A stretch of DNA of 64,000 nucleotides from Rhodococcus sp. AW25M09 (GTDB lineage Bacteria; Actinomycetota; Actinomycetes; Mycobacteriales; Mycobacteriaceae), in the NCBI RefSeq assembly GCF_000333955.1, contig NZ_CAPS01000109.1, positions 62,001-126,000 on the forward strand. Direction: 5' to 3'. Shown in pieces: positions 21,629 to 37,940 of this stretch. Both the position numbers and the translations under genes were made by a program. Numbering within the stretch: the stretch's first letter is position 1; the number at the start of each line of letters is the position of its first letter. The notes beneath the pieces were generated by a model. It ran no database searches. It was not told the DNA's origin and worked only from the letters and a program-made list of their open reading frames with translations.

Positions 21629-21656
21629 GGTCGCGGCACTCTCCGTCCTGGTGTGA

Positions 21657-21729
21657 TGTCCTTCACAAGGACACCACCGACGTCCAGTGTGCACAAGTGA
21701 TGACTTCACAACTGCGCACCATGCACAAT
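21657..21729. promoter_or_regulatory. bkdA/Lrp divergent control region with palindromes
   Basis: TGTCCTT-CAC-AAGGACA (21657-21673) is a perfect palindrome, GTGATGACTTCAC follows, and TGCGCACCATGCAC (21713-21726) closely resembles a site before the amino-acid dehydrogenase gene at 22284. These are candidate binding sites for the divergent Lrp-type regulator. Confidence 0.5.
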
Positions 21730-21762
21730 ATTGGGTGACGACCGAGCTACAGGAAGTGCGCA

Positions 21763-22242
21763 ATGACCGATCTGGACAAGACCGACGCCCGACTCCTCCT
21801 CGCCCTCTGCGGTAAGCCGCGGGCCACCGGCGTCGAGCTGGCGACGACGCTCGGCCTGTCTCGCAACACGGTGCAGGCGCGGCTCGGCCGATGGGACGAG
21901 AAGGGGTCGCTCACCCCGATCGATCACCGCATCCCGCCGAGATCGTTGGGTCGCCCGCTGCAGGCCTTCGTCACTGCACAGGTCAACCAACACACCCTGG
22001 CAGCGGTAACCGAGCACCTGCGCACGATCCCGGAGGTACTCGAAGTGTTCGGACTGTCGGGGGCCGCGGACATGCATATTCGTATCGCCGCTGTCGACGC
22101 CGAGGACCTCTATCGCATTGCCGGTCTCATCCTCGACATCCCAGGAGTCGAGCGCACCAATATGTCCATCGCGATGTCGGAGCTCATCCAGTACCGCACC
22201 AAGCCGCTGCTCGAACAACTCGCCGAGGACGGACGCCGCTGA
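21763..22242 (+). CDS. bkdR: Lrp/AsnC-family regulator, probable BkdR
   Basis: A 159-residue regulator: winged helix-turn-helix at residues 4-48 (DARLLLALCGKPRATGVELATTLGLSRNTVQ over two stretches), then a RAM domain with the ligand turn GLSGAADMHIRI. It is divergent from bkdABC and upstream of a branched-chain amino-acid dehydrogenase, the classic position of BkdR, which senses branched-chain amino acids. Both flanking operons carry a shared GCAnCATGCAC site. It is quite different from the other Lrp protein in the window. Confidence 0.87.
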   Translation: MTDLDKTDARLLLALCGKPRATGVELATTLGLSRNTVQARLGRWDEKGSLTPIDHRIPPRSLGRPLQAFVTAQVNQHTLAAVTEHLRTIPEVLEVFGLSGAADMHIRIAAVDAEDLYRIAGLILDIPGVERTNMSIAMSELIQYRTKPLLEQLAEDGRR

Positions 22243-22280
22243 GCATGCCGACCACCGCTGCCGGGTCGAGCCGGGGCCAC

Positions 22281-22300
22281 ACCGTGCAACATGCACGTTT
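22281..22300. promoter_or_regulatory. Second GTGCAACATGCAC site, before the amino-acid dehydrogenase
   Basis: GTGCA-ACA-TGCAC (22284-22296) is a perfect dyad about 115 bases before the dehydrogenase start. It matches the bkdA-side site in GCAnCATGCAC, suggesting one regulator for both transcription units. Confidence 0.45.
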
Positions 22301-22410
22301 TCGGCAGCCGAGGTTGACCACCGTGCACCTTCGCGACAGTCTCTGACGAACAAGCCTTCCCGGGTATCACCGTCTCGGGTGCCGCCGTTCATCACCGAAA
22401 GAGTCCGCCT

Positions 22411-23529
22411 GTGTCCGTCGTTGCCGACCGTTCCGCCGCCGTATCCAGCCCCTCGTCCGACGCGTCCTCAGCCGCAGCAGGCGTCTTCGACCGTCCTGAT
22501 ATGCCGCACGACTCGGCGCACGAACGCGTCGTGTTCTGCCAGGATCGCGACACCGGGCTGCGAGCGATCATCGCGGTCCACTCCACTGCACTCGGACCGG
22601 CTCTGGGCGGAACGCGCTTCTACCCCTACGCATCCGAGCAGGACGCGTTGACCGATGTGCTGCGGCTCTCGCGCGGGATGACCTACAAGGCGGCGGTTGC
22701 GGGAGTCGATCTCGGTGGCGGCAAAGCGGTGATCATCGGCGATCCCACTGCCGTCAAGACCCCGACGTTGCTGAACGCCTACGGCCGGTTCGTCGAGTCG
22801 CTCGGTGGAAGCTACGTCACGGCAGGCGATGTGGGCACGAACAGTGACGATCTCGACATCATCGCAGAAGAGACCACACACGTGGTGGGCAAGAACACCA
22901 CCGCCGGCGGCACCGGCGACAGTGGACCGCAGACTGCGCTCGGGGTCTTTCTCTCGCTCCGCGCTGCAGCCGAATCATGCTGGGGCTCCGATGATCTGGC
23001 CGGAAGGCGCGTCGGCGTCGAAGGTGCGGGCAAAGTGGGCTACAACCTCGTCGGCCTACTCCGAGATGCCGGCGCCGAGGTGGTCGTCGGCGACTCCTAC
23101 GCGCCCGCACTCGATCGCATCGTCGACAACTTCCCCGGCGTCACCATCGGATCCGACATCATCGGTGCCGATATCGACGTCTACGCACCGTGCGCCATGG
23201 GAGCAACCCTCGACGCAACCTCGGTGGCCCGTTTGTCGGCATCCATCGTCTGCGGCGCGGCCAACAACCAGCTGCTCACGCCCGACGTCGAGATGATGCT
23301 GGCTGCGCGCGGAATCGTCTGGGTGCCCGATTACGTCGCCAACGCAGGCGGGTTGATCCAGGTGGAAGGTGAACTGCGCGGCAAGGATTCGGCCGAGGTG
23401 ATGGCCACGATCGGACAGATCCGCGACACCGTTGCCGGCATCTTCGCCATCGCGCGGGCCGAGGGCATGCTGCTGGGTGCAGCGGCCGATCGCCTGGCCG
23501 AGAACCGCATCGCGGCCGCCGGGCACTGA
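22411..23529 (+). CDS. Leu/Phe/Val dehydrogenase (probable valine dehydrogenase)
   Basis: A 372-residue Glu/Leu/Phe/Val dehydrogenase. The substrate domain has the two lysines K93 (MTYKAAVAG) and catalytic K105 (LGGGKAVI); the NAD domain has the Rossmann glycines GVEGAGKVGYN near residue 195. It deaminates a branched-chain or aromatic L-amino acid to the 2-oxo acid that bkdABC then oxidises, so the whole set breaks down Val, Leu or Ile. The start is GTG 22411 with AAAGAG upstream. An unusual alanine/serine-rich stretch of about 28 residues precedes the domain, so a later start is possible. Confidence 0.87.
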   Translation: MSVVADRSAAVSSPSSDASSAAAGVFDRPDMPHDSAHERVVFCQDRDTGLRAIIAVHSTALGPALGGTRFYPYASEQDALTDVLRLSRGMTYKAAVAGVDLGGGKAVIIGDPTAVKTPTLLNAYGRFVESLGGSYVTAGDVGTNSDDLDIIAEETTHVVGKNTTAGGTGDSGPQTALGVFLSLRAAAESCWGSDDLAGRRVGVEGAGKVGYNLVGLLRDAGAEVVVGDSYAPALDRIVDNFPGVTIGSDIIGADIDVYAPCAMGATLDATSVARLSASIVCGAANNQLLTPDVEMMLAARGIVWVPDYVANAGGLIQVEGELRGKDSAEVMATIGQIRDTVAGIFAIARAEGMLLGAAADRLAENRIAAAGH

Positions 23530-23547
23530 GCAACGGCCGAGCACTTC

Positions 23548-23607
23548 TCGCTCCACTCCGGGCTGTCGATCAGGGATTACCGGATCCTCTGCCATGGAGT
23601 GGAGCGA
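23548..23607. terminator. Long-loop hairpin between convergent genes
   Basis: TCGCTCCACTCC (23548-23559) is the exact complement of 23596-23607, with 36 bases between that can fold weakly. It lies between the convergent amino-acid dehydrogenase and gabD genes and probably ends both transcripts. Confidence 0.6.
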
Positions 23608-23618
23608 TACGTGCACGT

Positions 23619-25070
23619 CTATGCAAGCGCGATGTACTTGGTCTCGAGGTATTCCTCGATGCCTTCCGAGCCGCCCTCGCGTCCGAATCCCGATTCCTTG
23701 ACGCCTCCGAAGGGAGCTGCGGCGTCGGAGATGGCACCACGATTGACGCCGACCATCCCGGTGTCGAGCGCCGCCGATACCCGCAGGGTGCGGTCGAGGC
23801 TCTCGGTGAAGAAGTACGCCACCAAACCGTATCGGGTGTCGTTCGCCGCAGCGATCGCCTCGTCCTCGGTGTCGAATCCGACGATCACCGCGACCGGCCC
23901 GAAGATCTCCTCCTGCAACAGATGTGCATCCACGGGTATCCGGTCCAGCACCGTGGGCGCATAGAAGAATCCGGGCCCCTCCTTCGCCTTTCCTCCGGTG
24001 CGCACCCGAGCACCCTTTGCGACGGCATCGTCGACGAGTGCAGACACGGTCTTGCGCTGCTTGTCGTTGATGAGCGGCCCGATGTCGGTACCGTTCCGAT
24101 CACCCGGTCCCACTGTCAGCGCCTCGATCCGCGCGGTCAACTTCGCGGTGAACTCCTCACGTACGGAGTTCGCGACGTACAGACGGTTGGCCGCCGTGCA
24201 CGCCTCGCCGCCGTTGCGCATCTTGGCCAGCATCGCCCCGTCGACGGCGGCGTCGATGTTCGCGTCGTCGAACACGATGAACGGGGCGTTGCCGCCGAGC
24301 TCCATCGAGGTGCGCAGCAATCGATCGGCGGCGTTACGTACCAACAGCTTTCCCACGCCGGTCGATCCGGTGAACGTGATCTTCCTGAGTCTCGGATCAT
24401 CCATCAACGGGCCGCTGACGGCCGCCGCATCGGAGGTCGGGAGGATCGAAAGCACGCCGCTGGGCAGACCGGCGTCGGCGAAGACCTGCCCGAGAAGAAG
24501 CATCGTCAGCGGAGTGTCCTCGGCCGGCTTGACGATGACGGTGCACCCCGCGGCCAGTGCGGGCCCGATCTTGCGAGTACCCATCGCCAACGGAAAATTC
24601 CAGGGCGTGATGGCCAAGACCGGGCCGACCGGCGACTTGGTCACCAGGATTCGGCCGTTACCTGCCGGTGCAGAGCTGAACCGACCACCGATCCGCACGG
24701 CCTCCTCGCTGAACCAGCGCAGGAATTCGCTGCCGTAGTTCACCTCACCGCGGCTCTCCGCCAACGACTTTCCCATTTCGAGTGTCATCAGCAGAGCGAA
24801 ATCGGCTGCGCGGTCCTGTAGTAGCTCGAACGCACGCCGCAGAATCTCCGCTCGCTCGCGCGGAGGCGTCGCCGCCCACTCCGGTTGTACCGCAGCCGCG
24901 AGATCCAGTGCCGTGATGCCGTCGGCCGCTGTGGCGTCGGCGACGGTCGTGAGTTCGTCGCCGGTGGCCGGGTCGATCACAGCGAATCGCGCCCCCGAGG
25001 CGGCCGGGGTCTGCTGCCCGCCGAGCCACAGGTCGGTGGGCAAAGAAGAGATCAGCTCGCGGACCACCAT
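23619..25070 (-). CDS. gabD: Succinate-semialdehyde dehydrogenase family (GabD-like)
   Basis: A 483-residue aldehyde dehydrogenase with the general base E257 in MELGGNAPF, the nucleophile C291 in GGEACTAANR, the cofactor block ITPWNFPLAM and FTGSTGVGK. The C-terminal GREGGSEGIEEYLETKYI is typical of the GabD/DavD branch. It would oxidise succinate semialdehyde (or glutarate semialdehyde) with NAD(P). The start ATG 25070 is one base after the gabT stop, so both are on one message. With gabT it completes GABA breakdown to succinate. Confidence 0.9.
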   Translation of the reverse strand: MVVRELISSLPTDLWLGGQQTPAASGARFAVIDPATGDELTTVADATAADGITALDLAAAVQPEWAATPPRERAEILRRAFELLQDRAADFALLMTLEMGKSLAESRGEVNYGSEFLRWFSEEAVRIGGRFSSAPAGNGRILVTKSPVGPVLAITPWNFPLAMGTRKIGPALAAGCTVIVKPAEDTPLTMLLLGQVFADAGLPSGVLSILPTSDAAAVSGPLMDDPRLRKITFTGSTGVGKLLVRNAADRLLRTSMELGGNAPFIVFDDANIDAAVDGAMLAKMRNGGEACTAANRLYVANSVREEFTAKLTARIEALTVGPGDRNGTDIGPLINDKQRKTVSALVDDAVAKGARVRTGGKAKEGPGFFYAPTVLDRIPVDAHLLQEEIFGPVAVIVGFDTEDEAIAAANDTRYGLVAYFFTESLDRTLRVSAALDTGMVGVNRGAISDAAAPFGGVKESGFGREGGSEGIEEYLETKYIALA

Positions 25071-25071
25071 G

Positions 25072-26436
25072 TCAGTGGGCCTGTGCCGCGTTGCGAAGCG
25101 CGTCCTCGAGGACGGTGAGCGCCTCATCGAGCAGCTCGTCCGAGATCACCAGTGGCGGGAGCAGACGGATCACGTTGCCGTAGGTGCCGCACGTCAGCAC
25201 GATGACGCCGGCCTCGAGTGCCGCAGCCGCAACTGCTTTGGTGGCCTCGGGGTTCGGCTCGCGCCCACCCGGTACGACGAGCTCCACGGCCAGCATGGCT
25301 CCGCGGCCCCGGACCTCACCGATGATGCCGACGGCGGGTGTCAATGCGTTGAGTCGATCGAGCACGATGCGCTCGATGTCGCGAGCACGCGCGTTGAGAT
25401 CGAGAGTGTCCATCTGCTCGATCGACGCCAGCGCTGCGGCGCAGGCAACGGGGTTGCCGCCGTAGGTACCGCCGAGTCCGCCCGGGTGCACGGCATCGAT
25501 CAGGTCGGCGCGGCCGGTGACCGCCGCCAGCGGCATCCCGCCCGCAATTCCTTTCGCCATCGTGATCAGGTCCGGCACGATGCCCTCGTGATCGCTGGCG
25601 AACCAGGCCCCCGTGCGGGTGAATCCGGACTGCACCTCATCGGCGATGAACACGACGTCGTTCTCTCGCGCCCAGGTGGCCAGTGCAGGCAAGAACCCTT
25701 CTGCAGGAACCACGAACCCGCCTTCGCCCTGAATCGGCTCGATCAGAATGGCGGCGAGATTACCTGCACCCACCTGCTTTTCGATCGCAGAGATCGCTCG
25801 GGCAGCAGCGTCGGCACCGGTCACCGAGGAACCGTCGGCGTTCAGGCCCTCGCGGAACGGGTAGGACATCGGAACCCGGTACACCTCGGGAGCGAACGGG
25901 CCGAAACCACTCTTGTACGGCATCGACTTCGAGGTCAGTGCCATCGTCAGGTTGGTGCGTCCGTGGTAGGCGTGGTCGAACACGACGACAGCGGAGCGGC
26001 CGGTGGCATGACGCGCGATCTTGACTGCATTCTCGACGGCCTCGGCCCCGCTGTTGAACAACACAGTGCGCTTGTCGTGATCACCGGGTGTCAGTTCGGC
26101 CAGCTTCTCGGCAACCGCGATGTAGCCCTCGTACGGGGCGATCATGAAACAGGTGTGGGTGAAGTGCGCGACCTGATCCTGCACGGCGGCAACGACGGCC
26201 GGGTTGGAGGCACCCACGGTCGTCACAGCGATTCCGGCGCCCAGGTCGATCAACGAGTTGCCGTCCACATCGACGACGACGCCGCCGTTTGCGTCGGCCA
26301 CGTAGACCGGCAGCGTCGACGCCACCCCTGCACCGACAACGGCCTTACGCCGCTCCGCCAACGCGGACGATCTGGGTCCGGGGAACGCGGTGACGATCTT
26401 GCGCTCCTGCGGAAGTCGGTACTCGATCGAGGCCAT
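25072..26436 (-). CDS. gabT: 4-aminobutyrate aminotransferase
   Basis: A 454-residue class III aminotransferase with the PLP lysine K295 in ITMAKGIAGGMPL, the cofactor aspartate in IADEVQSGFTRTG, and LFNSGAEAVENAVK. It transfers the amino group of GABA (or 5-aminovalerate) to 2-oxoglutarate and gives the semialdehyde for gabD. ATG 26436 has AAAGGTG upstream. The operon is divergent from a PucR regulator gene, with two direct repeats between them as likely operators. Confidence 0.92.
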   Translation of the reverse strand: MASIEYRLPQERKIVTAFPGPRSSALAERRKAVVGAGVASTLPVYVADANGGVVVDVDGNSLIDLGAGIAVTTVGASNPAVVAAVQDQVAHFTHTCFMIAPYEGYIAVAEKLAELTPGDHDKRTVLFNSGAEAVENAVKIARHATGRSAVVVFDHAYHGRTNLTMALTSKSMPYKSGFGPFAPEVYRVPMSYPFREGLNADGSSVTGADAAARAISAIEKQVGAGNLAAILIEPIQGEGGFVVPAEGFLPALATWARENDVVFIADEVQSGFTRTGAWFASDHEGIVPDLITMAKGIAGGMPLAAVTGRADLIDAVHPGGLGGTYGGNPVACAAALASIEQMDTLDLNARARDIERIVLDRLNALTPAVGIIGEVRGRGAMLAVELVVPGGREPNPEATKAVAAAALEAGVIVLTCGTYGNVIRLLPPLVISDELLDEALTVLEDALRNAAQAH

Positions 26437-26500
26437 GGTCGCACCTTTCGTCTGGGCTTGTTCAGCAAGTATGCGACTGTCCACCCCGAGGGAACGCGTG

Positions 26501-26544
26501 CCATTTCGTCCAGTACATGGAGCAGTTGCACACCATTTCGTCCA
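26501..26544. promoter_or_regulatory. Two direct repeats CCATTTCGTCCA in the gabT-pucR spacer
   Basis: Perfect 12-base copies start at 26501 and 26533, 32 bases apart (three helix turns), in the 130-base spacer between gabT and the PucR-type regulator gene. Direct repeats on one face of the helix fit binding by a PucR-family dimer. Confidence 0.55.
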
Positions 26545-26566
26545 TAGGTCGATTACAGTGCACCGA

Positions 26567-28069
26567 GTGAGCGTGCAGATGTCCTGGCTGCTGAGGCAGC
26601 GACACCTTCGACTGAGCCATCGCGGCGGACCCGAGCGCAGCGCTGCACCCATCACGTTCGCGCAGGCGACCGAGCTCACCGATCCCAGCCCCTGGCTGTC
26701 GGGCGGTGAGCTGATTCTGACCACCGGTCTCGGTTTCGACTCCGACGGCCCCTCGCTCGACACCTACGTCCGAACCCTGGCGACTGCCGGCGTTGCCTGC
26801 CTCGGTTTCGGAATCGGCCTCTCGCACAGCACCATTCCGCGGAATATTCTCGATGCGGCAGACGACGTGGGACTTCCGGTCGTGGAGGTTCCCTACGACA
26901 TTCCGTTCGCTGCCGTCATTCGCGCGATCATGAAACGTATTTCCGAGCAGGAGTACGAGCAGGTCGTTCGTGCTGCGTCGGTGCAGAACCGGATCACCCG
27001 GGCAGCCCTGCACGGCGGGGTCGACGCGATCGTCCGTGAACTCGCCCTTGCCACGTCGACGGCGGTGGCGCTGATCGGCAGGCGCACCGAGTCGTTCCAT
27101 CCGATGGACGCATCCGATCTCGTGGAGCAGGCCGGCGAGATCGCGCGCAGCATCCGCCCGTCCTCGGCGCCGGCCACGGTGTCGGTGAGCGAACCGGGGC
27201 GCACCGTGAGCCTGCACTCCGTGCCGATCACCGGCAGCGCTCCGACCTTCCTGGCCATTCGAACCACCGGCCCGATGACGGGAGTCGAGCAAATCCTGCT
27301 GGGCCATGCCGTATCGCTGGTGACCCTCGAACTCGAGAAGCCAACGCGGCTACGCGCCGAGCAATCTCGACTCAACAGCCTCGCACTCGGGTTGCTGCTC
27401 GACGGGCATCTGCTCTCTGCCCTCGATGAGCACCCGCCGAGTTATCTCGCCGATGCTGCCGACGACGACTCGGCAATCCGGGTCGCGGTGGTCCGCGGAC
27501 CGTCCGAGCGGATCGTCGAGGCACTCGATGCGCAGTGCCGGCTCAGGTCACGGCCCACCTTCGCCCGAGTCACCGACACCGGCTGCGACCTCCTGCTGCG
27601 CGGCTCCGACGACGCTGCGTTCGTTGCACGCCTCGTCGATTCACTTCCGCGCTCGGTGTGTGTCGGTCTCAGTTCTCGCCTACCCATCACCGAATCCCCC
27701 GCGGGTCTGCGACAAGCCACGCTCGCGTGCGCCGCCGCCGGGCCCCACGATCGCACCGTGGAGTTCTCCGGGTCGATGCTGCTGGCCTCGGAACCGGTGC
27801 AGGAATCGTTGCGCGCCATGGCCGCCATGACCATCGCGGTACTCGCGGAGTACGACCGCAGCCACAGTGCCGATCTGGTGGGTTCACTTCGCGCTTTCCT
27901 CGAGGCCAACGGGCATTGGGAAACCGCCGCGGTGCGCCTGTCCGTTCATCGTCACACGCTGCGCAACCGGATCACGCGGTGCGAGGAATTGCTGGCGGTG
28001 GATCTGACGTCGGCCCGGGTGCGCGCGGAATTGTTGCTGTCACTTCTCGCCGCATCGTCGAAGGGCTAG
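26567..28069 (+). CDS. PucR-family transcriptional regulator of the gab genes
   Basis: A roughly 500-residue regulator. Residues 1-125 form a PucR N-terminal domain (WLLRQRHLRL, LTDPSPWLSGGELILTTG over two stretches), a GGDEF-like CdaR middle follows, and the C-terminus is the PucR helix-turn-helix (LRAFLEANGHWETAA...LSVHRHTLRNRI). Several GTG starts (26558, 26567, 26573) and ATG 26579 are possible; 26567 is a compromise. It is divergent from gabTD, the position of GabR-type PucR activators that respond to GABA or succinate semialdehyde. Its stop overlaps that of the convergent flavoenzyme gene in CTAG. Confidence 0.88.
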   Translation: MSVQMSWLLRQRHLRLSHRGGPERSAAPITFAQATELTDPSPWLSGGELILTTGLGFDSDGPSLDTYVRTLATAGVACLGFGIGLSHSTIPRNILDAADDVGLPVVEVPYDIPFAAVIRAIMKRISEQEYEQVVRAASVQNRITRAALHGGVDAIVRELALATSTAVALIGRRTESFHPMDASDLVEQAGEIARSIRPSSAPATVSVSEPGRTVSLHSVPITGSAPTFLAIRTTGPMTGVEQILLGHAVSLVTLELEKPTRLRAEQSRLNSLALGLLLDGHLLSALDEHPPSYLADAADDDSAIRVAVVRGPSERIVEALDAQCRLRSRPTFARVTDTGCDLLLRGSDDAAFVARLVDSLPRSVCVGLSSRLPITESPAGLRQATLACAAAGPHDRTVEFSGSMLLASEPVQESLRAMAAMTIAVLAEYDRSHSADLVGSLRAFLEANGHWETAAVRLSVHRHTLRNRITRCEELLAVDLTSARVRAELLLSLLAASSKG

Positions 28070-29751
28070 TCGCCCAACCGAAGCGGTGCGATGGACTCGA
28101 AGACGTCGCCCGGTCCCGGGTTGCTTTCGGCCGACGCTCCGCCCAGGTGATGCACCACGCCCCAGACGGCGTTCAGTGCGGTGTGGATAGCACCTTCCGC
28201 CCAACCTGCGGTCCAGGAGATGTCGTCGCCGGCGAGGAAGATTCCTCGGTGCCGAGGCTCGAGTTCGTCCTGAACGAAGTGGGTGAACAGTCTTTCCTGG
28301 TACCGGTAGTGCCCCGGCAGGTTTGCCTTGAATGCACCCATGAAATTGCGCTCGGTTTCCCAGGAGAGCGTCACCGGTGTGGAGATGATGTGGCTGCGGA
28401 AGTCGACCCCGGGATAGATCTCTTCCAGGGATCGCAGCATGATGTTCATCCGCTCGGTCGGGTCGAGGGCGAGCAGCTTGAGCGAGTCGTCGGACCAGGT
28501 GTAGGACAGGCAGATAAGTCCCGGCTTACCCTCGCCCTGATCGAGTAGGTAGGTTCCGCGGCTCATCCTGTCGGTCAGCGTCATGCTGACCAGGTCGCGA
28601 CCGGTGACCGGATCCTTGTCCTTCCAGAACGGTCGATCGACTAGTGCGAATACTTTGGTCGACCCCATGTAGTGGGTGCGCTCGATGGCCGTCCAGTGAT
28701 CGATGGGGAACAGATCGTCGTCACATCTGATGTTGCTGAGCAACATCCAACTCTGGGCGGTCACCACGGCAGCGGCGTACGTACGGATGTTGCCGCGATC
28801 GTCGTGGATCGTGGTTCCCCCGTCGGTGCGCCTGATTTCGGTGACGCGAGGCATGGTGGCACCGCCGCCCAGCGAAGCCACCGAGGTGCCCTCGGGCCAG
28901 TGCACCATGTTCGCGGGCGAGTCGGTCCACAGCCGCATCGGCAACTGCTGTGACCCTCCGACAATCCCTCGATGGTGGTCGTCCGCCGCCGTGCTGACGA
29001 CTCGAAGGATCTCGAGGATGGAGTTGGGATAGTCGGTGTCCCAACCACCCGTTCCGAAACCGACCTGGCCGAACAGCTCTCGCGTCCGAAACGACGAGAA
29101 ATGCTCGGACGCGGCGAGGAATCCGTAGAACGTCTGATCGTCGAACTTCACGATCAGTTCGTTCCAGATTCGTTTGATCTCCGCTACGTCCCGCATTCGA
29201 ATGGCGCGCTGCAGTGGAACCAGTTCGGCGTGTTCCTCGAGCGTGTTGTTCCACGCCTCGGCAACTTCGGCGAATATCGGGGGGAGGTCGTCCAGCTTCT
29301 GCGCGTAATGGCTCTCGCCTTTGAGGTCGATCACCGTGCTGGGGGTCACCTCGGCCAGAGGATTCGGGAACGGCGTCGTCTCGAGCCCGACGGCATCGAG
29401 GTAGTGGAACAGTGCCGTAGACGACGGCGGAAACCGCATCGCACCCATCTCGGCCACCACACCTGGATATCCGTCGAACGGAACCGAGCGCATTCGTCCG
29501 CCGATCCGATCCGATTCGTACACAACCGGTTCGAGACCGAGACGCAGCAGTTCATGGGCGACGACCATGCCCGCGAGGCCACCGCCGATCACGGCAACCT
29601 GGGTACCGAGGGCCGCGTCGGGAATGCTGCCGAGACCGGCCGGGTGCGCGAGGTAGTCGTCGTAGGCAAACGGGAAGTCCGGGCCGAACATGGTCAGCGG
29701 CTGCTCGTCCTCGGATGCGATTGCGCTGTCCGGGGTGACGGGTGTGGTCAT
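28066..29751 (-). CDS. Flavin-dependent basic amino-acid 2-monooxygenase/oxidase (arginine or lysine type)
   Basis: A 561-residue flavin amine oxidase with the FAD motif VIGGGLAGMVVAHEL at residues 54-68 and the Arg-rich GGRMRS. The opening MFGPDFPFAYDDYLAHPAG, the block QVGFGTGGWDTDYPNS and the ending NPGPGDVFE recall Pseudomonas lysine 2-monooxygenase (DavB), which turns an amino acid into a shortened amide with CO2 loss. The C-N hydrolase gene overlaps its start (ATGA 29748-29751), as DavA goes with DavB. Because a ureohydrolase and gabTD flank it, arginine, giving 4-guanidinobutyramide, is my preferred substrate; lysine is the alternative. A plain L-amino-acid oxidase cannot be excluded. 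Confidence 0.82.
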   Translation of the reverse strand: MTTPVTPDSAIASEDEQPLTMFGPDFPFAYDDYLAHPAGLGSIPDAALGTQVAVIGGGLAGMVVAHELLRLGLEPVVYESDRIGGRMRSVPFDGYPGVVAEMGAMRFPPSSTALFHYLDAVGLETTPFPNPLAEVTPSTVIDLKGESHYAQKLDDLPPIFAEVAEAWNNTLEEHAELVPLQRAIRMRDVAEIKRIWNELIVKFDDQTFYGFLAASEHFSSFRTRELFGQVGFGTGGWDTDYPNSILEILRVVSTAADDHHRGIVGGSQQLPMRLWTDSPANMVHWPEGTSVASLGGGATMPRVTEIRRTDGGTTIHDDRGNIRTYAAAVVTAQSWMLLSNIRCDDDLFPIDHWTAIERTHYMGSTKVFALVDRPFWKDKDPVTGRDLVSMTLTDRMSRGTYLLDQGEGKPGLICLSYTWSDDSLKLLALDPTERMNIMLRSLEEIYPGVDFRSHIISTPVTLSWETERNFMGAFKANLPGHYRYQERLFTHFVQDELEPRHRGIFLAGDDISWTAGWAEGAIHTALNAVWGVVHHLGGASAESNPGPGDVFESIAPLRLGD

Positions 29752-30584
29752 CGGTCGGTCTCCTGCTCGGCCCGCGAGGGTCCTGTCGGGTAGAGAACTG
29801 TCCGGTACAGATCGGGTCGGCGATCGGTCAGATGGGTGTTGACGGCGCGTGATCGAGTGAGTTCGGCGGGATCGAGCTGCACCGTCAGAAGTTGTTCGTG
29901 TGCACCGGCTCGCGCGATGTCGTTGCCACCCGGCGCGACAGCACAGCTCAACCCGCAGTACGTCAGGCTCGCCTCGGTTCCACAGCGGTTGACGTAGGTG
30001 ATGAACAGTTGGCTCTCGTACGCCCTCGTCGGAACCACATGGGTTGCGATGATCTCGAACGGGGTCATCAAACCGGTAGGAACGATCAACCATTGCGTTC
30101 CGGCATCGGCGTGCGCGCGCACCGTTTCCGGGAATTCGACGTCGTAGCAGGTGAGCAGACCGCAGCGCAGGCCGTCGAAGTCGAACTGCACCAGCAACTC
30201 CGGCCCGGGAGCGAAGTGAGTGCGATCGAGTTCGCCGAACAGGTGGGTCTTGCGGTAGCGCGCCAGTGATCGTCCGGATGCATCGACCACCTGCACCGAA
30301 TTGAACACCGAGTCACCACTGCGCTCGGGATATCCGTACACGATTGCGACAGAACGGGTTCGAGCGATCGCGGCGACGCGCTGAAAGTTGGGACCGTCGA
30401 ACGGCTCCGCCCGCTCGAGCACGAGGTCACCGATGTCGTAGCCGCTGACCGACATCTCCGGGGTCACCAGGATCGACGCCCCCGCTGCGGCCGCGCCGGC
30501 CGCAGCGGCGTCGAGCGCGGCGAGGTTGGCCTCGACATCGCCGGAAAGTTCGGGCCCTTGAAAGAGGGACACGGTTGCTGTCAC
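29748..30584 (-). CDS. Carbon-nitrogen hydrolase (amide hydrolase partner of the monooxygenase)
   Basis: A 278-residue nitrilase-superfamily enzyme with the full triad E43 (TPEMSVSGY), K112 (YRKTHLFGELD) and C146 (LLTCYDVEFPE). GYPERSGDSVFNSVQ and the C-terminal YCGLSCAVAPGG resemble DavA-type omega-amidases. It should hydrolyse the amide made by the flavoenzyme, 4-guanidinobutyramide or 5-aminovaleramide, to the acid. The start is GTG 30584 with AGGAG eight bases before it. It overlaps the XRE-cupin gene (GTGA) and the flavoenzyme gene (ATGA), so three proteins come from one coupled message. Confidence 0.87.
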   Translation of the reverse strand: MTATVSLFQGPELSGDVEANLAALDAAAAGAAAAGASILVTPEMSVSGYDIGDLVLERAEPFDGPNFQRVAAIARTRSVAIVYGYPERSGDSVFNSVQVVDASGRSLARYRKTHLFGELDRTHFAPGPELLVQFDFDGLRCGLLTCYDVEFPETVRAHADAGTQWLIVPTGLMTPFEIIATHVVPTRAYESQLFITYVNRCGTEASLTYCGLSCAVAPGGNDIARAGAHEQLLTVQLDPAELTRSRAVNTHLTDRRPDLYRTVLYPTGPSRAEQETDR

Positions 30585-31213
30585 GATCGAAACTCCTGTT
30601 TCTTCATGGGCAACTCCTCGGGCAGCGCCGGGGCCAATACCCACAGAACTCGGGCATCGCCGCCCCCTTCGCTGCGAAAGCTGTGCGGTCGCCGCGGTGA
30701 GAACGTGAATGCGTCGCCCGCGCCGAGCAGAACGTCGTCACTGCCGAAAGTGCCGTCGGGATCGGCCTCGAAGATCACCCGAACCTCGCCGGACAGCACA
30801 TGCACGAAGGTGACGTCCAACGGCAGGGTGTACGCCTCCGCACCGCTCCCGCCGCCGGCCTCGATGTGGCCCAGCAGCACTTGAACGCGACGCTCCCCCA
30901 CCGGCGTCAGCAGATACTCGGTCATTGCCTCGCCCCCGAAGACGATGCGCGGCAGCGACTCTGCCCGCACCACCTCACCCGCCGGAGCATCGTCGAACAG
31001 CGAGCCGACCGGCACGTCGAGGGCAGCGCAGACCCGCACCAACGACGCGACCGACGCGTTCACCTGATCGCGCTCGAGCTTGGACAGGTACCCCTTGGTG
31101 ACCCCACAGGTGTCGGCGAGCGCGTCGAGAGTCAGTCGCTTCTTCTGCCGCGCCTCCTTGAGCCGCGCACCGATACGCGGTGCGTCGTTCTCGACCGACG
31201 TAGCAACAGACAC
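30581..31213 (-). CDS. XRE-family regulator with cupin sensor domain
   Basis: A 210-residue protein: helix-turn-helix at residues 12-66 (RLKEARQKKRLTLDALAD then GVTKGYLSKLERD) and a cupin domain from about 100 to 200 (TFVHVLSGEVRVIFEAD, GDAFTFSPRRPHSF). This layout is that of PuuR-like repressors that sense polyamines or their products. GTG 31213 is chosen over GTG 31222 because GAGAGG lies at proper distance. It heads the hydrolase-flavoenzyme operon and is divergent from the ureohydrolase gene, so it likely represses both and is released by an arginine-pathway intermediate. Confidence 0.88.
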   Translation of the reverse strand: MSVATSVENDAPRIGARLKEARQKKRLTLDALADTCGVTKGYLSKLERDQVNASVASLVRVCAALDVPVGSLFDDAPAGEVVRAESLPRIVFGGEAMTEYLLTPVGERRVQVLLGHIEAGGGSGAEAYTLPLDVTFVHVLSGEVRVIFEADPDGTFGSDDVLLGAGDAFTFSPRRPHSFRSEGGGDARVLWVLAPALPEELPMKKQEFRS

Positions 31214-31239
31214 CGTTCTCACCTCTCAGGAAACTCGTG

Positions 31240-31267
31240 TTGACAAGATCGTGCATCAGAGTAACGC
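31240..31267 (+). promoter_or_regulatory. Probable promoter of the ureohydrolase gene
   Basis: TTGACA (31240-31245), a 16-base spacer and TAACGC (31262-31267) form a plausible housekeeping promoter 64 bases before the ureohydrolase ATG. It lies in the spacer shared with the XRE-cupin gene, where that repressor would act. Confidence 0.5.
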
Positions 31268-31330
31268 TTGCCGAGCGAACTGGTCGACTCAACTGTCACC
31301 GGACTCCTCGACTTCGAAAAGGAATTCTCG

Positions 31331-32290
31331 ATGAACCCGAGCAATCCCGAGCACCCACCGGTCGGTCCGGTCGACGCCACCAAGGTTCCGCGCTTCGCCG
31401 AACCGACCACGTTCGCCCGGCTACCCCGACTCGACGAGGTCTCTCGTGCCGACGTCACCATCCTCGGCGTGCCGTTCGATTCCGGGGTGAGCTATCGGCC
31501 CGGTGCACGTTTCGGTCCGGGCCACATCAGAGCGGCCTCGAAGCTGTTGCGGCCCTACAACCCCGCCCTGAAGGTCTCGCCCTTCGCCCGTCAGCAAGTG
31601 GCGGACTTCGGTGATATCGGGGTCAATCCGTTCGACATCACCGAGGCGCTGACCACGGTGCACGACGCGGTGACGGACCTGCGCGCCGACGGCTCGGCGG
31701 TTCTGACTCTCGGCGGCGATCACACCATCGCTCTGCCGATCCTGCGTTCGCTCGCACGCGACCACGGACCGATAGCAGTGCTGCACTTCGATGCTCACCT
31801 CGACACCTGGGACACATACTTCGGTGCGCCCTACACGCACGGCACCCCCTTCCGGCGGGCCAGCGAGGAGGGACTCATCGACCTCGAACGATCACAGCAC
31901 ATCGGTATTCGTGGCCCGCTCTACAGCGAGCAGGATCTCGAGGACGATCGTGTGCTCGGTTTCCAGGTGATTCGTTCCGACGACTACGAGGTCGACGGAG
32001 TGGCCAGCATCGTCGAGCGCATGCGTAAACGCCTCGACGGCGGCCCCGTCTACGTCTCGGTCGACATCGACGTTCTCGACCCCGCACACGCGCCGGGCAC
32101 CGGCACTCCCGAGGCCGGCGGCATGACCTCCCGCGAACTGTTGAACACTCTGCGCGGACTGGTCGGGCTGAACGTGGTCGGTGCCGACATCGTCGAGGTG
32201 GCACCCGCATACGACCACGCCGAGATCACCGGAATCGCGGCGGCTCACGTTGCCTACGAATTGCTTTCGGTACTGGCACTCAACCGCTGA
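31331..32290 (+). CDS. Ureohydrolase (guanidinobutyrase/agmatinase family)
   Basis: A 319-residue arginase-superfamily enzyme keeping every manganese ligand: H131 (GGDHTIA), D154/H156/D158 (HFDAHLDTW), D245/D247 (VDIDVLDP). [11 protein letters not shown] marks the agmatinase/guanidinobutyrase/guanidinopropionase branch rather than true arginase. ATG 31331 is preceded by AAGGA. It splits a guanidino compound to urea and an amine. With a 4-guanidinobutyramide-forming pair across the promoter and gabTD nearby, 4-guanidinobutyrate to GABA plus urea is the best-fitting reaction. Agmatine or guanidinopropionate remain possible. Confidence 0.88.
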
Positions 32291-32305
32291 CGTCGATCCC
32301 GGCAG

Positions 32306-33205
32306 TCACCGCCGCGGCAACACCAGGATCGGGACCGGTGAATGACGAATGATCTTGGTTGCCCGTGAGCCGAGGAACACGCGAGCAATCGGTCCCAGTG
32401 GTCCGGACGATCCGATGGTCAGCACCTCGCCGTCCTGCCACTGCAGTTCGTCGAGGGCTTCGCGCCAACTACCGGCCGAGGCCAGTTCGGTCGTCACCTG
32501 ATCTGCCGATAGTCCCACCGCCACTGCGTCGTCCACCGCGGCGGTGAGTGCCTCGCTCAGCCCTCGAGAAAGCTCGGCGGCCACGTCGTCCTCTGCGCGT
32601 AGTCCCACTTCGGGTGGATACATCGACGCCCCGCGGACGACGAACGACGCCAGCCTCAGCGGAATTCCCGCATCCCGGGCCAGCTCCGCAGTCGGCCCCA
32701 CCACACGCGAGGCCTCACTGTCACCGGAGAACGCAACCGTGATCCGCGTCAGGGTCGCCCGTTCGCGCACGCGGTAACCGCGAGGTGCCAGGGCCACGGT
32801 CACCGGCGAGGAGTGCAGAAGTTTGTCTGCTGTCGACCCCACGACGACCTGTCCGAGTGCGCCGTCGCCCGATGACCCGAGTACCAGCACCGATGCCGAC
32901 AGGCTCTGTGCGGCTTCCGTCAACGCCGTCGACACCGAGCGGTGGGCCAGGCGGTGGAACGACGCGGCGATGTCGGGTGCCCGATCCTCGAGGTAGTGCC
33001 GCGCCTTCGCCTCCGACTCGGCTGCCGTGGCCGCAGCCCAGTCCGCGAACTCGGCATCGACGCGTGCCATCGACGGCGTCGACCACGGCTTGGGCACCAC
33101 CGTCGCGACGTCGATCGTCGTTCCCGACGACCTTGCCAATTGCGCCCCGAGATCGAGTGCGCCCACACTTCCCTTTCCCGGCGCGAAGGCGATCAGAGTG
33201 CTCAT
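32306..33205 (-). CDS. Universal stress protein, two tandem Usp domains
   Basis: A 299-residue protein with two Usp domains (about 1-145 and 155-299). The first has the ATP-binding GSSGDGALGQVVVGS and the second GSSGPLGPIARVFLGS, both matching G-2x-G-9x-G(S/T), so ATP binding is likely. The start overlaps the permease stop (ATGA), and Usp proteins fused or coupled to APC permeases are a known theme, perhaps regulating transport. ORFs upstream in this frame are antisense-like and omitted. Confidence 0.9.
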   Translation of the reverse strand: MSTLIAFAPGKGSVGALDLGAQLARSSGTTIDVATVVPKPWSTPSMARVDAEFADWAAATAAESEAKARHYLEDRAPDIAASFHRLAHRSVSTALTEAAQSLSASVLVLGSSGDGALGQVVVGSTADKLLHSSPVTVALAPRGYRVRERATLTRITVAFSGDSEASRVVGPTAELARDAGIPLRLASFVVRGASMYPPEVGLRAEDDVAAELSRGLSEALTAAVDDAVAVGLSADQVTTELASAGSWREALDELQWQDGEVLTIGSSGPLGPIARVFLGSRATKIIRHSPVPILVLPRR

Positions 33206-34644
33206 CGCGCATCCTTTGCGACCGATCGGAGCGCCGAATGATGCCGACCCCACAGAAAGTAGAACGCGAGAACCACTGCGAGCCAGAGCCCGAACCAGAA
33301 CCACGTCGTCCACCGCAGGCCGGAGAGGATGTACACACAGGCCAGGACCGACAGCACCGGCGTCACCGGATATCCCGGTACCTTGAACGGCCGTTCGAGG
33401 TTCGGCATGGTCCGACGAAGCACCATCACCCCGATCGCCACGACGATGAACGCGACGAGGGTGCCGATCGACACCAGATCGGCCAGCTTGTCCAGAGGAA
33501 CGAACGCAGCGAGAATCGAGATTATCACTGCAACGACGATCGTATTGTTCACCGGGGTGTGAGTACGGGGACTGACCTTGGCGAAGGCTTTGGGCAACAT
33601 GCCGTCTCGCCCCATCGCGAAGAGAATACGAGTCTGCCCGTACATCGTCACCAGCGTCACCGAGAAGATCGAGATCACTGCTCCCGCGGCGAGGATCGTT
33701 GCGGGCCAGGCCCGCCCGGTGACGTTGCGCAGGATCTCGGCCAACCCGGCTTCCTCCTGGCCCGCGAAGGCGGTCCACGGTTGGGTGCCGAGAGCGGCCA
33801 CCGCAACCACGAGGTAGAAGACGATGACGACGATCAGCGCAGCAATGATGGCTCGCGGCATGGTCTTCTGCGGATTTTTCACCTCGTCGCCTGCGGTGGA
33901 CACCGCATCGAGACCGATGAACGAGAAGAAGATGGTCCCTGCGGCAGCAGTGACACCTGCCGTTCCCAGCGGCATGAAATCGGAGAAATTGCCCGAGTCG
34001 AAGGCACTGAATCCGACGATGGCGAACAGCGCCAATACACCGAGTTTGATGACGACCATGACTGCGTTGACGGCCGCGGATTCGCTGGCACCGCGAATGA
34101 GCAACAGAGCGCACAGCACTATCAGCACGACGGCGGGCAGATTCATGACGCCAGGGTCGGAGTCGCCGGGCGCAGCGGACAGCGCGTGCGGGATGGTGAA
34201 GCCGAAGAGGTTGTTCAGCAGTTCGTTGAGGTAACCGCTCCACCCGACGGCAACGGCAGCGCTCGACACTCCGTACTCGAGCAGCAGGCAGGCCGCGACT
34301 CCCATCGCGACCACCTCGCCCATCGTCACGTAGGCGTAGGAATAGGTCGAGCCCGATACCGGCACCGCCGAGGCCATTTCGGCGTAACAGATAGCGGCGA
34401 GACCGGCCGCGATACCCGCCGCCAGGAACGAAAGCACCACTGCAGGACCGGCTTCGGGGACCGCCAGCGACAGCACGAAGAAGATACCGGTGCCGATGGT
34501 GGCACCGACACCGAACATGGTCAGCTGGAACGTGCCGATGGTCCGTTCCAGTCCGCCGTCCGCTTGCTGGTCGGGATCGGTGATCGGCTTCTTGCGGAGC
34601 AGCTGTGCTCTCAGGCCCGATGCGGGTCTGCTCGACGAGGTCAT
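33202..34644 (-). CDS. APC-family amino-acid permease (cationic type)
   Basis: A 480-residue integral membrane protein with about 12-14 helices. The first helix has the APC signature FGVGATIGTGIFFVLS, followed by EMASAVPVSGSTYSYAY and FFSFIGLDAVSTAGDEVKNPQ, typical of the CAT (cationic amino-acid transporter) branch. ATG 34644 has GGAG eight bases before it. It is coupled to the Usp gene and divergent from a second PucR regulator. As the cationic branch takes arginine and lysine, it probably feeds the catabolic genes beside it. Confidence 0.88.
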   Translation of the reverse strand: MTSSSRPASGLRAQLLRKKPITDPDQQADGGLERTIGTFQLTMFGVGATIGTGIFFVLSLAVPEAGPAVVLSFLAAGIAAGLAAICYAEMASAVPVSGSTYSYAYVTMGEVVAMGVAACLLLEYGVSSAAVAVGWSGYLNELLNNLFGFTIPHALSAAPGDSDPGVMNLPAVVLIVLCALLLIRGASESAAVNAVMVVIKLGVLALFAIVGFSAFDSGNFSDFMPLGTAGVTAAAGTIFFSFIGLDAVSTAGDEVKNPQKTMPRAIIAALIVVIVFYLVVAVAALGTQPWTAFAGQEEAGLAEILRNVTGRAWPATILAAGAVISIFSVTLVTMYGQTRILFAMGRDGMLPKAFAKVSPRTHTPVNNTIVVAVIISILAAFVPLDKLADLVSIGTLVAFIVVAIGVMVLRRTMPNLERPFKVPGYPVTPVLSVLACVYILSGLRWTTWFWFGLWLAVVLAFYFLWGRHHSALRSVAKDAR

Positions 34645-34818
34645 GTAACCGACTCCCAACGTGGAGACGAACGTGCGGATCGGCTGATTGTGCTCCCAGG
34701 TAGCGCCTCTCGCACATCGAACACGCCACGAAATGCGCCGATAGAGGCAGAGAAAGTTTCAGGACCGGCGTTGCGGTGCCTACCATTGACCTTCAGTCGG
34801 ATGGGAGATACGAGAGAG

Positions 34819-36033
34819 ATGGCCACACAGCGGGACGCGGGACCGCTCGACGCAGTCGCTGCGCTGGCTGCGTCGGACGCCGGCGGACTCGACGCCACCC
34901 TCCTGGGCAGCTTTCTGGACGTTCTCACCGATGCAGTGGATGCAGGCGTCCCGTTGAGCCGCAAGCAACTACGCGAATTTCGCGCGCAGGGCGACGCCGC
35001 GGCCCGCGCAGGCGTGGCACTGCGCGCCCTGCTCGACCTGTATCTGAGCTCCGCGTGGCGGCTGTGGCGAGAGCTGCCCGCGGTGAAGGCGGCCGCCGAG
35101 AATCCCGCCGGTGTCGTCACAGCAGGCGAGGTCATGCTGCGTGCCGTCGACGACGCGGTGGCCGAACTGGCCGAGGGCTATCAGCTCGCCCGACGCACCC
35201 TTGTGCGCGTCGAGGTGCTTGCCCGGCGTGAATTCGTCGACGATCTGCTCTCGGGTACCGCCGATCTCGCAGGCGTACTCGGGCGAGCCCGGACATTCGG
35301 ACTCGACCTGTCGAGTCCGCACACGGTGGCCGTGGTGACGTCGACCAAGCCCTTCACCGATGCCAGCTCTGCTATCGGCCTCGTCGAACGCAGCGTGCAG
35401 GGCAGCAAGGGTGATGCCGAATTGCTCGTCGCAACCAAGCAGGACCGGTTGGTCCTGGTGTTCCCGGCACCCGATCGCGAGGCCGTCGACCACGTGCTCA
35501 CTCGGGCCGGGCGTGCCCTGGGAATGTCCCCGCGCGGTCCGAGTGGATCGGTGGACCTCCGGCGGAAGGGTGAGTACGGGCGGGCGCAGATCGGCGTCGG
35601 CCGCGCCCGCAGTGGAGCGGTCGGGGTGGCGGCGTCCTACCGAGAGGCGCTCGACGCACTCGAACTGGCCTCTGTGCTCGGGCTCGATACACCCATGGTC
35701 GATGCCCGTGATCTGCTCGTCTACCGAGTTCTGATCAGTGATCGCGCCGCCATCGCCGATCTGATCGACACACTGCTGACCCCGCTGCTCGCTGCCCGCG
35801 GTGGTCCGGGCCCACTGATGCAGACATTGCAGGTGTACTTCGACACCGGCGCGAATTCCGCGTCCACCGCCAGACGAATGCACCTGTCCGTGCGAGCAGT
35901 CACGTACAGGTTGTCGCGAATAAAGGATCTGACCGGCCAGGATGTGAGCAATCCCGTCGAGGCATTCGCGCTGCACACGGCGGTGCTCGGCGCAACGCTG
36001 CTCGACTGGCCGAACAACCGCCGACCGACCTAG
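34819..36033 (+). CDS. PucR/CdaR-type transcriptional regulator
   Basis: A 404-residue regulator: a helical N-terminal region (residues 20-115), a GGDEF-like CdaR middle (about 140-280), and a PucR helix-turn-helix at the C-terminus (YFDTGANSASTARRMHLSVRAVTYRLSRI in two stretches). ATG 34819 follows GAGAGAG; an in-frame ATG at 34801 lacks such a site. The long open frame to the left is antisense to the permease and is not coding. It is divergent from the permease-Usp operon, its probable target. Confidence 0.87.
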   Translation: MATQRDAGPLDAVAALAASDAGGLDATLLGSFLDVLTDAVDAGVPLSRKQLREFRAQGDAAARAGVALRALLDLYLSSAWRLWRELPAVKAAAENPAGVVTAGEVMLRAVDDAVAELAEGYQLARRTLVRVEVLARREFVDDLLSGTADLAGVLGRARTFGLDLSSPHTVAVVTSTKPFTDASSAIGLVERSVQGSKGDAELLVATKQDRLVLVFPAPDREAVDHVLTRAGRALGMSPRGPSGSVDLRRKGEYGRAQIGVGRARSGAVGVAASYREALDALELASVLGLDTPMVDARDLLVYRVLISDRAAIADLIDTLLTPLLAARGGPGPLMQTLQVYFDTGANSASTARRMHLSVRAVTYRLSRIKDLTGQDVSNPVEAFALHTAVLGATLLDWPNNRRPT

Positions 36034-36052
36034 CCTTCGTCGGCGCAGTCGA

Positions 36053-36071
36053 ATTGCCGTAACCCGGCAAT
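36053..36071. terminator. Short hairpin after the PucR gene
   Basis: ATTGCCG (36053-36059) pairs with CGGCAAT (36065-36071) around a five-base loop, 20 bases after the regulator stop. There is no U-tract, so termination is uncertain. Confidence 0.4.
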
Positions 36072-36192
36072 CGAATCAGACGAAACATATCCGCAAAACG
36101 ACCATGCCTGCAGGAAACCGAACAGCCACACTGGAGTAATCGCGGTCGAACCGCACGATCGGACAGACGAGAACGTAAGGAGCGTGTGCCAG

Positions 36193-36249
36193 ATGGCATC
36201 GACGCAGAAGCTCGGCAGCACATTCACGAGTGAGGGGGCCCGTTCATGA
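36193..36249 (+). CDS. 18-residue leader ORF coupled to the TerC gene
   Basis: AAGGAG at 36177-36182 precedes an ATG that opens an 18-residue frame (MASTQKLGSTFTSEGARS) ending in a TGA overlapping the TerC ATG (ATGA, 36246-36249). The strong ribosome site and exact overlap suggest a translated leader that controls terC by coupling or ribosome pausing. It has no domain of its own. Confidence 0.5.
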   Translation: MASTQKLGSTFTSEGARS

Positions 36250-37313: not shown

Positions 37314-37327
37314 CCCGTCGTCACTCG

Positions 37328-37355
37328 TGCCCCGCCGATTCGGTTCGGCGGGGCA
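37328..37355 (+). terminator. Intrinsic terminator after terC
   Basis: TGCCCCGCCGA (37328-37338) pairs exactly with 37345-37355 over a six-base loop and is followed by TGTTTGTG. It separates terC from dps, only 30 bases downstream. Confidence 0.85.
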
Positions 37356-37385
37356 TGTTTGTGTTCGGAAGGGTTGGGGCAAACC

Positions 37386-37940
37386 ATGAACATGGCTGAA
37401 AAGAACTCGTACACCGTTCCCGGACTCACCTCGGAAAAGGGCGCACGCGTCGCCGCGATTCTGCAGGATCGTCTCAACGCATTCAACGATCTCCACCTGA
37501 CGCTCAAGCACATCCACTGGAACGTCGTCGGGCCGAATTTCATCTCGGTTCACGAGATGCTCGATCCGCAGGTCGAAGCGGTTCGCGGATTTGCGGACGA
37601 CGTTGCCGAGCGCATCGCGACGCTGGGCTCGTCGGCCAAGGGCACACCAGGGACCATCGTTTCCGAACGCACCTGGGACGACTACTCGATCGGCCGCGCA
37701 ACTGCGATCGAACACCTCGGCGCTCTCGACCTGGTCTACACCGGCGTCATCGAGACCACCCGCAAGAACATCGCGGAGGTCGGCGATATCGACCCCATCA
37801 CCGAGGACATGCTCATCGGTCAGAGCGCTCAGCTCGAGCTTTTCCACTGGTTCGTCCGTGCGCACCTGGAGAACTCCGGCGGCCAGCTGTCCACCGCGCA
37901 CGCCGACAGCGAGATCGACGCAGCGTCGCAGGCAGGCTGA
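37386..37940 (+). CDS. Dps-family ferritin-like DNA protection protein
   Basis: A 184-residue Dps protein with the ferroxidase-site residues HIHWNVVGPNF, HEMLDPQVEAVRGFADDVAERI and the usual dodecamer-forming helices. It stores iron by using H2O2 and shields DNA during oxidative stress. The start ATG 37386 (MNMAEK) follows a G-rich stretch; ATG 37392 is an alternative. The C-terminal tail after residue 160 is acidic rather than basic, so DNA binding by it is unlikely. A strong terminator follows. Confidence 0.9.
   Translation: MNMAEKNSYTVPGLTSEKGARVAAILQDRLNAFNDLHLTLKHIHWNVVGPNFISVHEMLDPQVEAVRGFADDVAERIATLGSSAKGTPGTIVSERTWDDYSIGRATAIEHLGALDLVYTGVIETTRKNIAEVGDIDPITEDMLIGQSAQLELFHWFVRAHLENSGGQLSTAHADSEIDAASQAG

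Follow-up and report, generated by a model that had tools for sequence, protein, structure and literature searches.

A Rhodococcus gene cluster with a probable role in arginine catabolism by the monooxygenase route

The window analyzed here is a stretch of 64,000 nucleotides on contig 58 of the 5.64-Mb genome of Rhodococcus sp. AW25M09. Between positions 23619 and 34644 it holds genes for a flavin monooxygenase (hereafter the flavoenzyme), a C-N hydrolase, a ureohydrolase, an XRE-cupin regulator, GabT- and GabD-like enzymes and a permease, and this locus in all likelihood encodes the catabolism of L-arginine by the monooxygenase route. Every gene that the initial annotation had named in this interval is present, and each was located by coordinates and family models:

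23619-25070, minus strand: gabD-like aldehyde dehydrogenase, a putative succinate semialdehyde dehydrogenase (PF00171; best NCBIfam model TIGR01780)
25072-26436, minus strand: gabT, 4-aminobutyrate transaminase (NF004714 and TIGR00700 above cut-off)
28066-29751, minus strand: flavin 2-monooxygenase of the flavin amine-oxidase family, proposed arginine 2-monooxygenase (PF01593)
29748-30584, minus strand: C-N hydrolase, proposed 4-guanidinobutyramide amidohydrolase (PF00795)
30581-31222, minus strand: XRE-cupin transcription regulator (PF01381 and PF07883 above cut-off)
31229-31244, plus strand: GGAAACTCGTGTTGAC, operator-like motif in the gap between xre and the ureohydrolase gene, kept in relatives
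31331-32290, plus strand: ureohydrolase of the arginase family, proposed guanidinobutyrase (PF00491; NCBIfam name agmatinase)
33202-34644, minus strand: APC amino-acid permease, proposed importer (PF13520, PF13906)

How would these genes work together? The permease would import the amino acid, and the flavoenzyme would use O2 for the oxidative decarboxylation of arginine to 4-guanidinobutyramide. The C-N hydrolase would convert this amide to 4-guanidinobutyrate and ammonia, and the ureohydrolase would split the acid into 4-aminobutyrate (GABA) and urea, the latter passing to urease, which is encoded elsewhere in the genome. GabT and GabD would then take GABA through succinate semialdehyde to succinate. 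The genes for XRE, C-N hydrolase and flavoenzyme look like a single minus-strand operon with xre first: by their coordinates, XRE and C-N hydrolase overlap by 4 nt, as do C-N hydrolase and flavoenzyme. The ureohydrolase gene is transcribed divergently from xre (an alternative start, TTG at 31268, is possible), and the XRE-cupin protein probably controls both units through the GGAAACnnGnGTTGAC site. The observations concern which genes are present, how they are linked, how they co-occur, their active-site residues and the distribution of this motif; all substrates are predictions, and so are the ligand of the regulator and the sign of its action.

The first line of evidence is co-occurrence. 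Among 37 genomes of the genus, 31 have the flavoenzyme (at least 75% identity), and the same 31 have the ureohydrolase on the same contig, within 3.3 kb in 30 and at 9.0 kb in one (G031). Five of the six genomes without the flavoenzyme have no arginase-family match and the sixth (G006) has a weaker, more distant one; additional distant matches occur in G010, G017 and G027. We attach no p-value, because related strains are not independent. A wider scan kept, as loci from named genomes, the best 80 of 591 confirmed stretches, and these are the most similar ones; the closest named relatives are Rhodococcus and Rhodococcoides fascians strains (flavoenzyme identity 94-96%). A ureohydrolase lies nearby in 36 of the 80, XRE in 32 and the APC permease (at least 45% identity) in 47. 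The ureohydrolase accompanies all 21 Rhodococcus/Rhodococcoides loci, all five of Tsukamurella, all five of Geodermatophilus, both of Blastococcus and the one locus each from Nocardioides, Antrihabitans and Haloechinothrix. A plasmid of Tsukamurella tyrosinosolvens carries the genes for ureohydrolase, permease, C-N hydrolase and flavoenzyme consecutively, with xre divergent. The C-N hydrolase is adjacent to the flavoenzyme and co-directional with it in 77 of the 80 loci, a pairing that exceeds chance.

A DNA motif points the same way. GGAAACnnGnGTTGAC lies upstream of the ureohydrolase gene and, in some relatives, also upstream of the amidase/flavoenzyme unit. When 22 XRE-ureohydrolase gaps were aligned, a conserved GGAAAC..G.GTTGAC block emerged, from which a few sequences deviate; within this genome the exact form occurs once, as GGAAACTCGTGTTGAC in the window. 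Across 142 loci (5.77 million bases, both strands together), scanning returned 41 sites in 35 loci. The named and unnamed loci come partly from the same genomes, and the motif-scan, motif-XRE and residue counts given here contain repeats. Upstream of a ureohydrolase gene lie 35 of the sites; the other six are second sites, pointing at the C-N hydrolase in L070, L072 and L085 and, in L074, L075 and L078, at a permease located ahead of the C-N hydrolase and flavoenzyme. The motif occurred nowhere else in these loci. Over the 37 whole genomes it was found in exact form 20 times, 19 times just upstream of the ureohydrolase by coordinates and once elsewhere (G008, contig 76); a reversed control pattern matched once. 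No exact copy stands at the ureohydrolase in 12 of the 31 flavoenzyme genomes.

What might read this motif? Where xre adjoins the ureohydrolase gene divergently (40 loci), the motif is exact in 35, has one mismatch in three and two mismatches in two. Where such an xre is absent (13 loci), no copy with up to two mismatches exists in 12, and L086 has one with a single mismatch. Because the motif goes with the adjacent XRE, we take XRE to be its likely reader. In the window itself, a scan allowing three mismatches gave one match, the exact site, against 0.21 expected, and 19 of 100 shuffles gave at least one, a result uninformative by itself. Exact inverted repeats in the XRE-ureohydrolase gap were absent from the Rhodococcus fascians-group gaps, and none was common across genera; the motif taken from the alignment is directional. 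No Rfam match above the gathering score was found in 20000-38000, the predicted folding of the ureohydrolase leader is no stronger than that of shuffled sequences (z -0.49), and a consensus scan of 31150-31400 found no sigma-70-type promoter, which makes it only a guess that GTTGAC overlaps a -35 box. The common motif and the joint inheritance in relatives suggest that the core genes function as a unit.

Which amino acid does the flavoenzyme use? Among proteins of solved structure, it scores highest against the L-lysine oxidase/monooxygenase of Pseudomonas sp. AIU 813 (3we0; 735.7 bits, 55% identity), whose numbering is used throughout. The two are of one family and share Asp238 and most active-site residues (3we0, 5yb6-5yb8; PMC5832979), including all six of the set Arg102, Trp235, Tyr416, Trp418, Phe473 and Trp516. 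As PMC5832979 describes the pocket, Asp238 contacts the charged end of lysine, ornithine or arginine, the balance of oxidase and monooxygenase activities depends chiefly on Cys254, and the position of Ala515 is Gly in the Trp and Phe enzymes, whose pockets are wider. The lysine-type pocket has Cys or Leu, Gln and Ala at 254, 258 and 515 (Cys254, Gln258 and Ala515 in AIU 813), whereas the window enzyme has Ala254, His258 and Gly515 and is linked to a ureohydrolase. We surveyed 141 flavoenzyme rows from the fetched loci, omitting L171, which yielded no flavoenzyme frame. The window pattern at 235, 238, 254, 258 and 515 recurs in 132 of them. Gly515 is present in all 53 ureohydrolase-linked rows; Ala515 is confined to four (L060, L144, L150 and L151), whose fetched stretches all lack a ureohydrolase. 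This linkage is suggestive of arginine, with a count that is not significant, and a statistical test was dropped because the Ala515 rows are too few.

Residue 238 varies across the family. The second flavoenzyme of genome G009 (L044:9167-10840; 52% identity) has Ser at 238 and Cys254. Its neighbors include a C-N hydrolase and a gene for a TctA-type transporter, and its substrate is probably a different, non-basic one. A further family member (L166:9125-10792), with an adjoining C-N hydrolase, has Asn at this position.

What does a lysine-type locus look like? L151, without a ureohydrolase, combines C-N hydrolase, flavoenzyme, GabT (64% identical to that of the window), an acyl-CoA dehydrogenase (57% to that of the window) and a CoA-transferase whose best model, succinate-glutarate CoA-transferase, scores below cut-off. 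L150 likewise has no ureohydrolase; its genes include those for C-N hydrolase, flavoenzyme, GabT and an aldehyde dehydrogenase resembling GabD. Both flavoenzymes carry the AIU 813-type residues WDCQA (235, 238, 254, 258, 515). In a midpoint-rooted tree of 50 rows left after removal of near-duplicates, the AIU 813 enzyme, L150, L151, L060, L144 and L061 form a group of six (100/100), separate from the other 44 rows. L061 falls in this lysine-side group, yet has Gly515; its exact place is weak (81/9) and its branch long. Where other loci have the C-N hydrolase, an amidase-signature enzyme of an unrelated family adjoins the L061 flavoenzyme, and the convergent ureohydrolase of L061 matches GbuA (3nio) with 497 bits and GpuA with 340. 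Such a combination is expected of the arginine route, which needs a guanidinobutyrase and an amide hydrolase, whatever the family of the latter.

The window ureohydrolase is the only PF00491 gene of the genome and fits the arginase fold family closely (E 3.1e-95). Its nearest solved relatives are GpuA (3nip; 281.8 bits) and GbuA (3nio; 273.9) of Pseudomonas aeruginosa, followed by proclavaminate amidinohydrolase (244.4) and the best agmatinase (210.4). In GbuA, R72 caps the active site and could contact the substrate carboxylate, as PMC9772407 has it; Arg holds this position in the window protein and in all 53 ureohydrolases with an identity of 58% or more. At a second position, taken from PMC10833137, the window protein and all 53 close homologs have Tyr, like GpuA (Y157), where GbuA itself has Met (M161); the paralogs have Glu (six) or Met (one, the L061 GbuA).

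Several findings weigh against the arginine reading. No ureohydrolase was found in the fetched stretch of 44 of the 80 named loci: none of the 43 Streptomyces, Amycolatopsis, Actinacidiphila and Saccharopolyspora loci has one nearby, nor does one Intrasporangiaceae metagenome-assembled genome. Three loci (L080, L082 and L088) have no whole C-N hydrolase beside the flavoenzyme. L058, with a ureohydrolase and the same residue pattern as the window, also has an acyl-CoA dehydrogenase 68.7% identical to that of the window, so that lysine-type and arginine-type neighborhoods are not fully separate. The Gly515 contrast involves just four Ala515 rows and related sequences. For the ureohydrolase, two agmatinase models are above cut-off (TIGR01230, 234.6 bits against 174.3; NF002564, 307.6 against 302), and GpuA slightly outscores GbuA, a pair that sequence does not separate. 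Arg in the R72 column does not discriminate, because seven of seven less similar paralogs, six of them poorly aligned, also carry it. The genome further encodes an arginine deiminase (G000, contig 162, L148; NF002381 above cut-off, TIGR01078 below), with an adjoining carbamoyltransferase gene, so the monooxygenase route is not the sole arginine route here. Finally, in Table 2 of PMC5832979 the AIU 813 lysine enzyme also takes ornithine and arginine, so residues alone cannot decide the substrate.

This last point speaks for a rival in which the flavoenzyme acts broadly on arginine, ornithine and lysine, the ureohydrolase serving the arginine branch only and GabT and GabD the products of all three. 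Its pocket residues at 254, 258 and 515 are unlike those of the four lysine-type rows, and lysine has another possible route, because the genome holds a lysine 6-aminotransferase-family gene above cut-off. We consider a broad enzyme improbable.

A dedicated lysine route is less probable still. Lysine would pass through 5-aminovaleramide and 5-aminovalerate, GabT and GabD would yield glutarate, an acyl-CoA dehydrogenase would finish the pathway, and the ureohydrolase would be a bystander. The nearest solved relative of the flavoenzyme is indeed a lysine enzyme. The neighboring genes do not decide the matter by themselves: GabT is encoded in the adjoining cluster, and the initial annotation had noted a glutaryl-CoA dehydrogenase gene in the vicinity. 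There is an acyl-CoA dehydrogenase gene in the window (6430-7629, plus strand), about 16 kb from gabD; the glutaryl-CoA dehydrogenase model comes third, behind FadE and acryloyl-CoA reductase, with all three below cut-off. The gene lies between those for cystathionine gamma-synthase (5206-6387) and cystathionine beta-synthase (7698-9080), which speaks against this route, as do the lysine 6-aminotransferase-family gene, the ureohydrolase that accompanies the flavoenzyme in 31 of 31 genomes, and the WDCQA residues of the ureohydrolase-free, lysine-route-like L150 and L151. The initial preference for arginine over lysine is thus supported by the genus co-occurrence, by residue 515, by these two loci, by the independent assembly of L061 with its clear GbuA, and by a motif common to the ureohydrolase and amidase/flavoenzyme units. 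We also count in favor of arginine the Tsukamurella plasmid run, the urease and a thiamine pyrophosphate (TPP) enzyme in L058.

That TPP enzyme touches on a further rival, about as improbable as the lysine route, in which the flavoenzyme is mainly an L-amino-acid oxidase giving 2-ketoarginine, and loss of CO2, chemically or by another enzyme, yields 4-guanidinobutyrate. The AIU 813 enzyme has both activities, with Cys254 key for their balance (PMC5832979), and the window enzyme has Ala254. The TPP enzyme of L058 (L058:10366-12102) directly follows the ureohydrolase and has 5-guanidino-2-oxopentanoate decarboxylase as its best model; for that of L086 (L086:17802-19424) this model is second-best, and both scores are below cut-off. 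Both TPP enzymes adjoin an aldehyde dehydrogenase and the ureohydrolase, and could perhaps use 2-ketoarginine from an oxidase side reaction. Against oxidation as the main activity stand the amide hydrolase adjacent in 77 of 80 named loci and the unrelated amidase beside the flavoenzyme of L061.

Could the ureohydrolase supply polyamines instead? The genome has no PF01276 match and only a partial speA match, below cut-off, and therefore no recognized arginine decarboxylase of these two families, other decarboxylase kinds not having been searched. That it is an agmatinase placed by accident beside the flavoenzyme is hardly credible, since the agmatinase models above cut-off and the speB annotation of relatives (e.g., on the Tsukamurella plasmid) are set against this lack of an agmatine source, the higher scores of guanidino-acid hydrolases among solved proteins, and the co-occurrence and common motif with the flavoenzyme.

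For the arginine reading we propose a wider scheme, as a whole about as open to doubt as to belief and perhaps slightly more so. The XRE-cupin protein would sense a guanidino or amide intermediate and act through GGAAACnnGnGTTGAC, defining a so far unnamed arginine-monooxygenase regulon in Rhodococcus, Tsukamurella and Geodermatophilaceae. Arginine use would have arisen at least twice in the flavoenzyme family each time by the same pocket change, Ala515 to Gly, once in the lysine-type lineage of L061, which would have taken up an unrelated amidase and GbuA, and the 'agmatinase' ureohydrolases of the cluster would be guanidinobutyrases.

How much of this is new? Arginine monooxygenase (EC 1.13.12.1) belongs to classical actinobacterial enzymology, and degradation by this enzyme is a named database pathway, ARGDEG-V-PWY, with the same reaction order as proposed here. 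To our knowledge, the oxygen-dependent arginine route is known mainly from enzymology. The route and its first two enzymes are thus already known, and the novelty lies with the set of genes, with the motif and with the hypothesis on Gly515. Compared with ARGDEG-V-PWY, the window offers a complete gene set and a candidate operator, to which the comparison with relatives adds a one-residue specificity hypothesis that makes lysine versus arginine directly testable at residue 515. The automatic 'agmatinase' label is called into question. A literature search, in which many papers were judged by title, found no description of a catabolic gene set with an XRE-cupin regulator.

The catabolic cluster is also linked to enzymes that Streptomyces uses for arginine-derived polyketide starters. 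According to PMC5082578, an arginine monooxygenase and a 4-guanidinobutyramide hydrolase make the starter of azalomycin-type polyketides. By reaction these are the same first two steps as proposed here; there the product goes to the starter, while the ureohydrolase, GabT and GabD of the window point to catabolism. In Streptomyces, too, flavoenzymes 66-70% identical to that of the window have an adjacent C-N hydrolase. Modular polyketide synthase genes stand beside the flavoenzyme in L163 (L163:12126-18482) and L164 (L164:14940-19853), the latter also with a ureohydrolase. The tree places both in a group of three rows adjoining the window's own clade of 37 rows. They look like arginine-derived polyketide clusters, and we count them for the arginine reading, since synthases of this kind are supplied with products of arginine monooxygenase (PMC5082578). 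A survey of cyanobacterial arginine routes (PMC2242806) proposed an arginine oxidase/dehydrogenase pathway that shares 4-guanidinobutyrate, GABA and succinate as later intermediates; as outlined there it runs through 2-ketoarginine and, unlike our proposal, without an amide hydrolase step. An arginoketide paper (PMC10322714) belongs to the known context, and a soil metagenome paper (PMC13270027) mentions arginine monooxygenase in passing.

The remaining features of the cluster are the following:

26579-28069, plus strand: PucR-family regulator, PucR1 (PF07905 and PF13556 above cut-off)
32306-33205, minus strand: Usp, two-domain universal stress protein (PF00582, two stretches)
34819-36033, plus strand: second PucR/CdaR-type regulator, just past 34644 and divergent from the permease (PF17853 and PF13556 above cut-off; start codon at either 34801 or 34819)

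GabT exceeds the TIGR00700 cut-off (611.7 against 506.65). The best model for GabD, the succinate semialdehyde dehydrogenase TIGR01780, gives 542.6 bits, below its curated cut-off of 646.35. The two genes had been presented as part of the set, which holds for this window and for few of the named loci: gabT/gabD lie nearby in only 14 of the 80 (gabT at 60% identity or more). PucR1 is probably the regulator of gabTD, because it travels with gabT in relatives: a homolog is present in 13 of the 14 named loci that have gabT. Of the three regulators originally called dedicated, the data tie only XRE to the ureohydrolase, amidase and flavoenzyme genes. The permease gene overlaps that of Usp by 4 nt. 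Its earlier description as cationic was not borne out: the best NCBIfam model is the branched-chain BcaP, below cut-off, and the cationic model scores lower.

Beside the flavoenzyme of Blastococcus saxobsidens, one of the loci without a whole C-N hydrolase, a frame (L088:2882-3250) by eye keeps both ends of the hydrolase and not its middle. The amidase-less Rhodococcus genomes G011, G012 and G016 have amidase homologs of 43-46% identity elsewhere. The window segment 18153-23529, which flanks the cluster, holds an operon resembling 2-oxoacid dehydrogenase genes, an Lrp-like gene (21763-22242) and a gene similar to those for Trp/Leu dehydrogenases. An Lrp homolog (80-84% identity) directly adjoins the flavoenzyme in ten loci, repeats included, and gabTD may therefore have been inserted here between the Lrp-like gene and the flavoenzyme.

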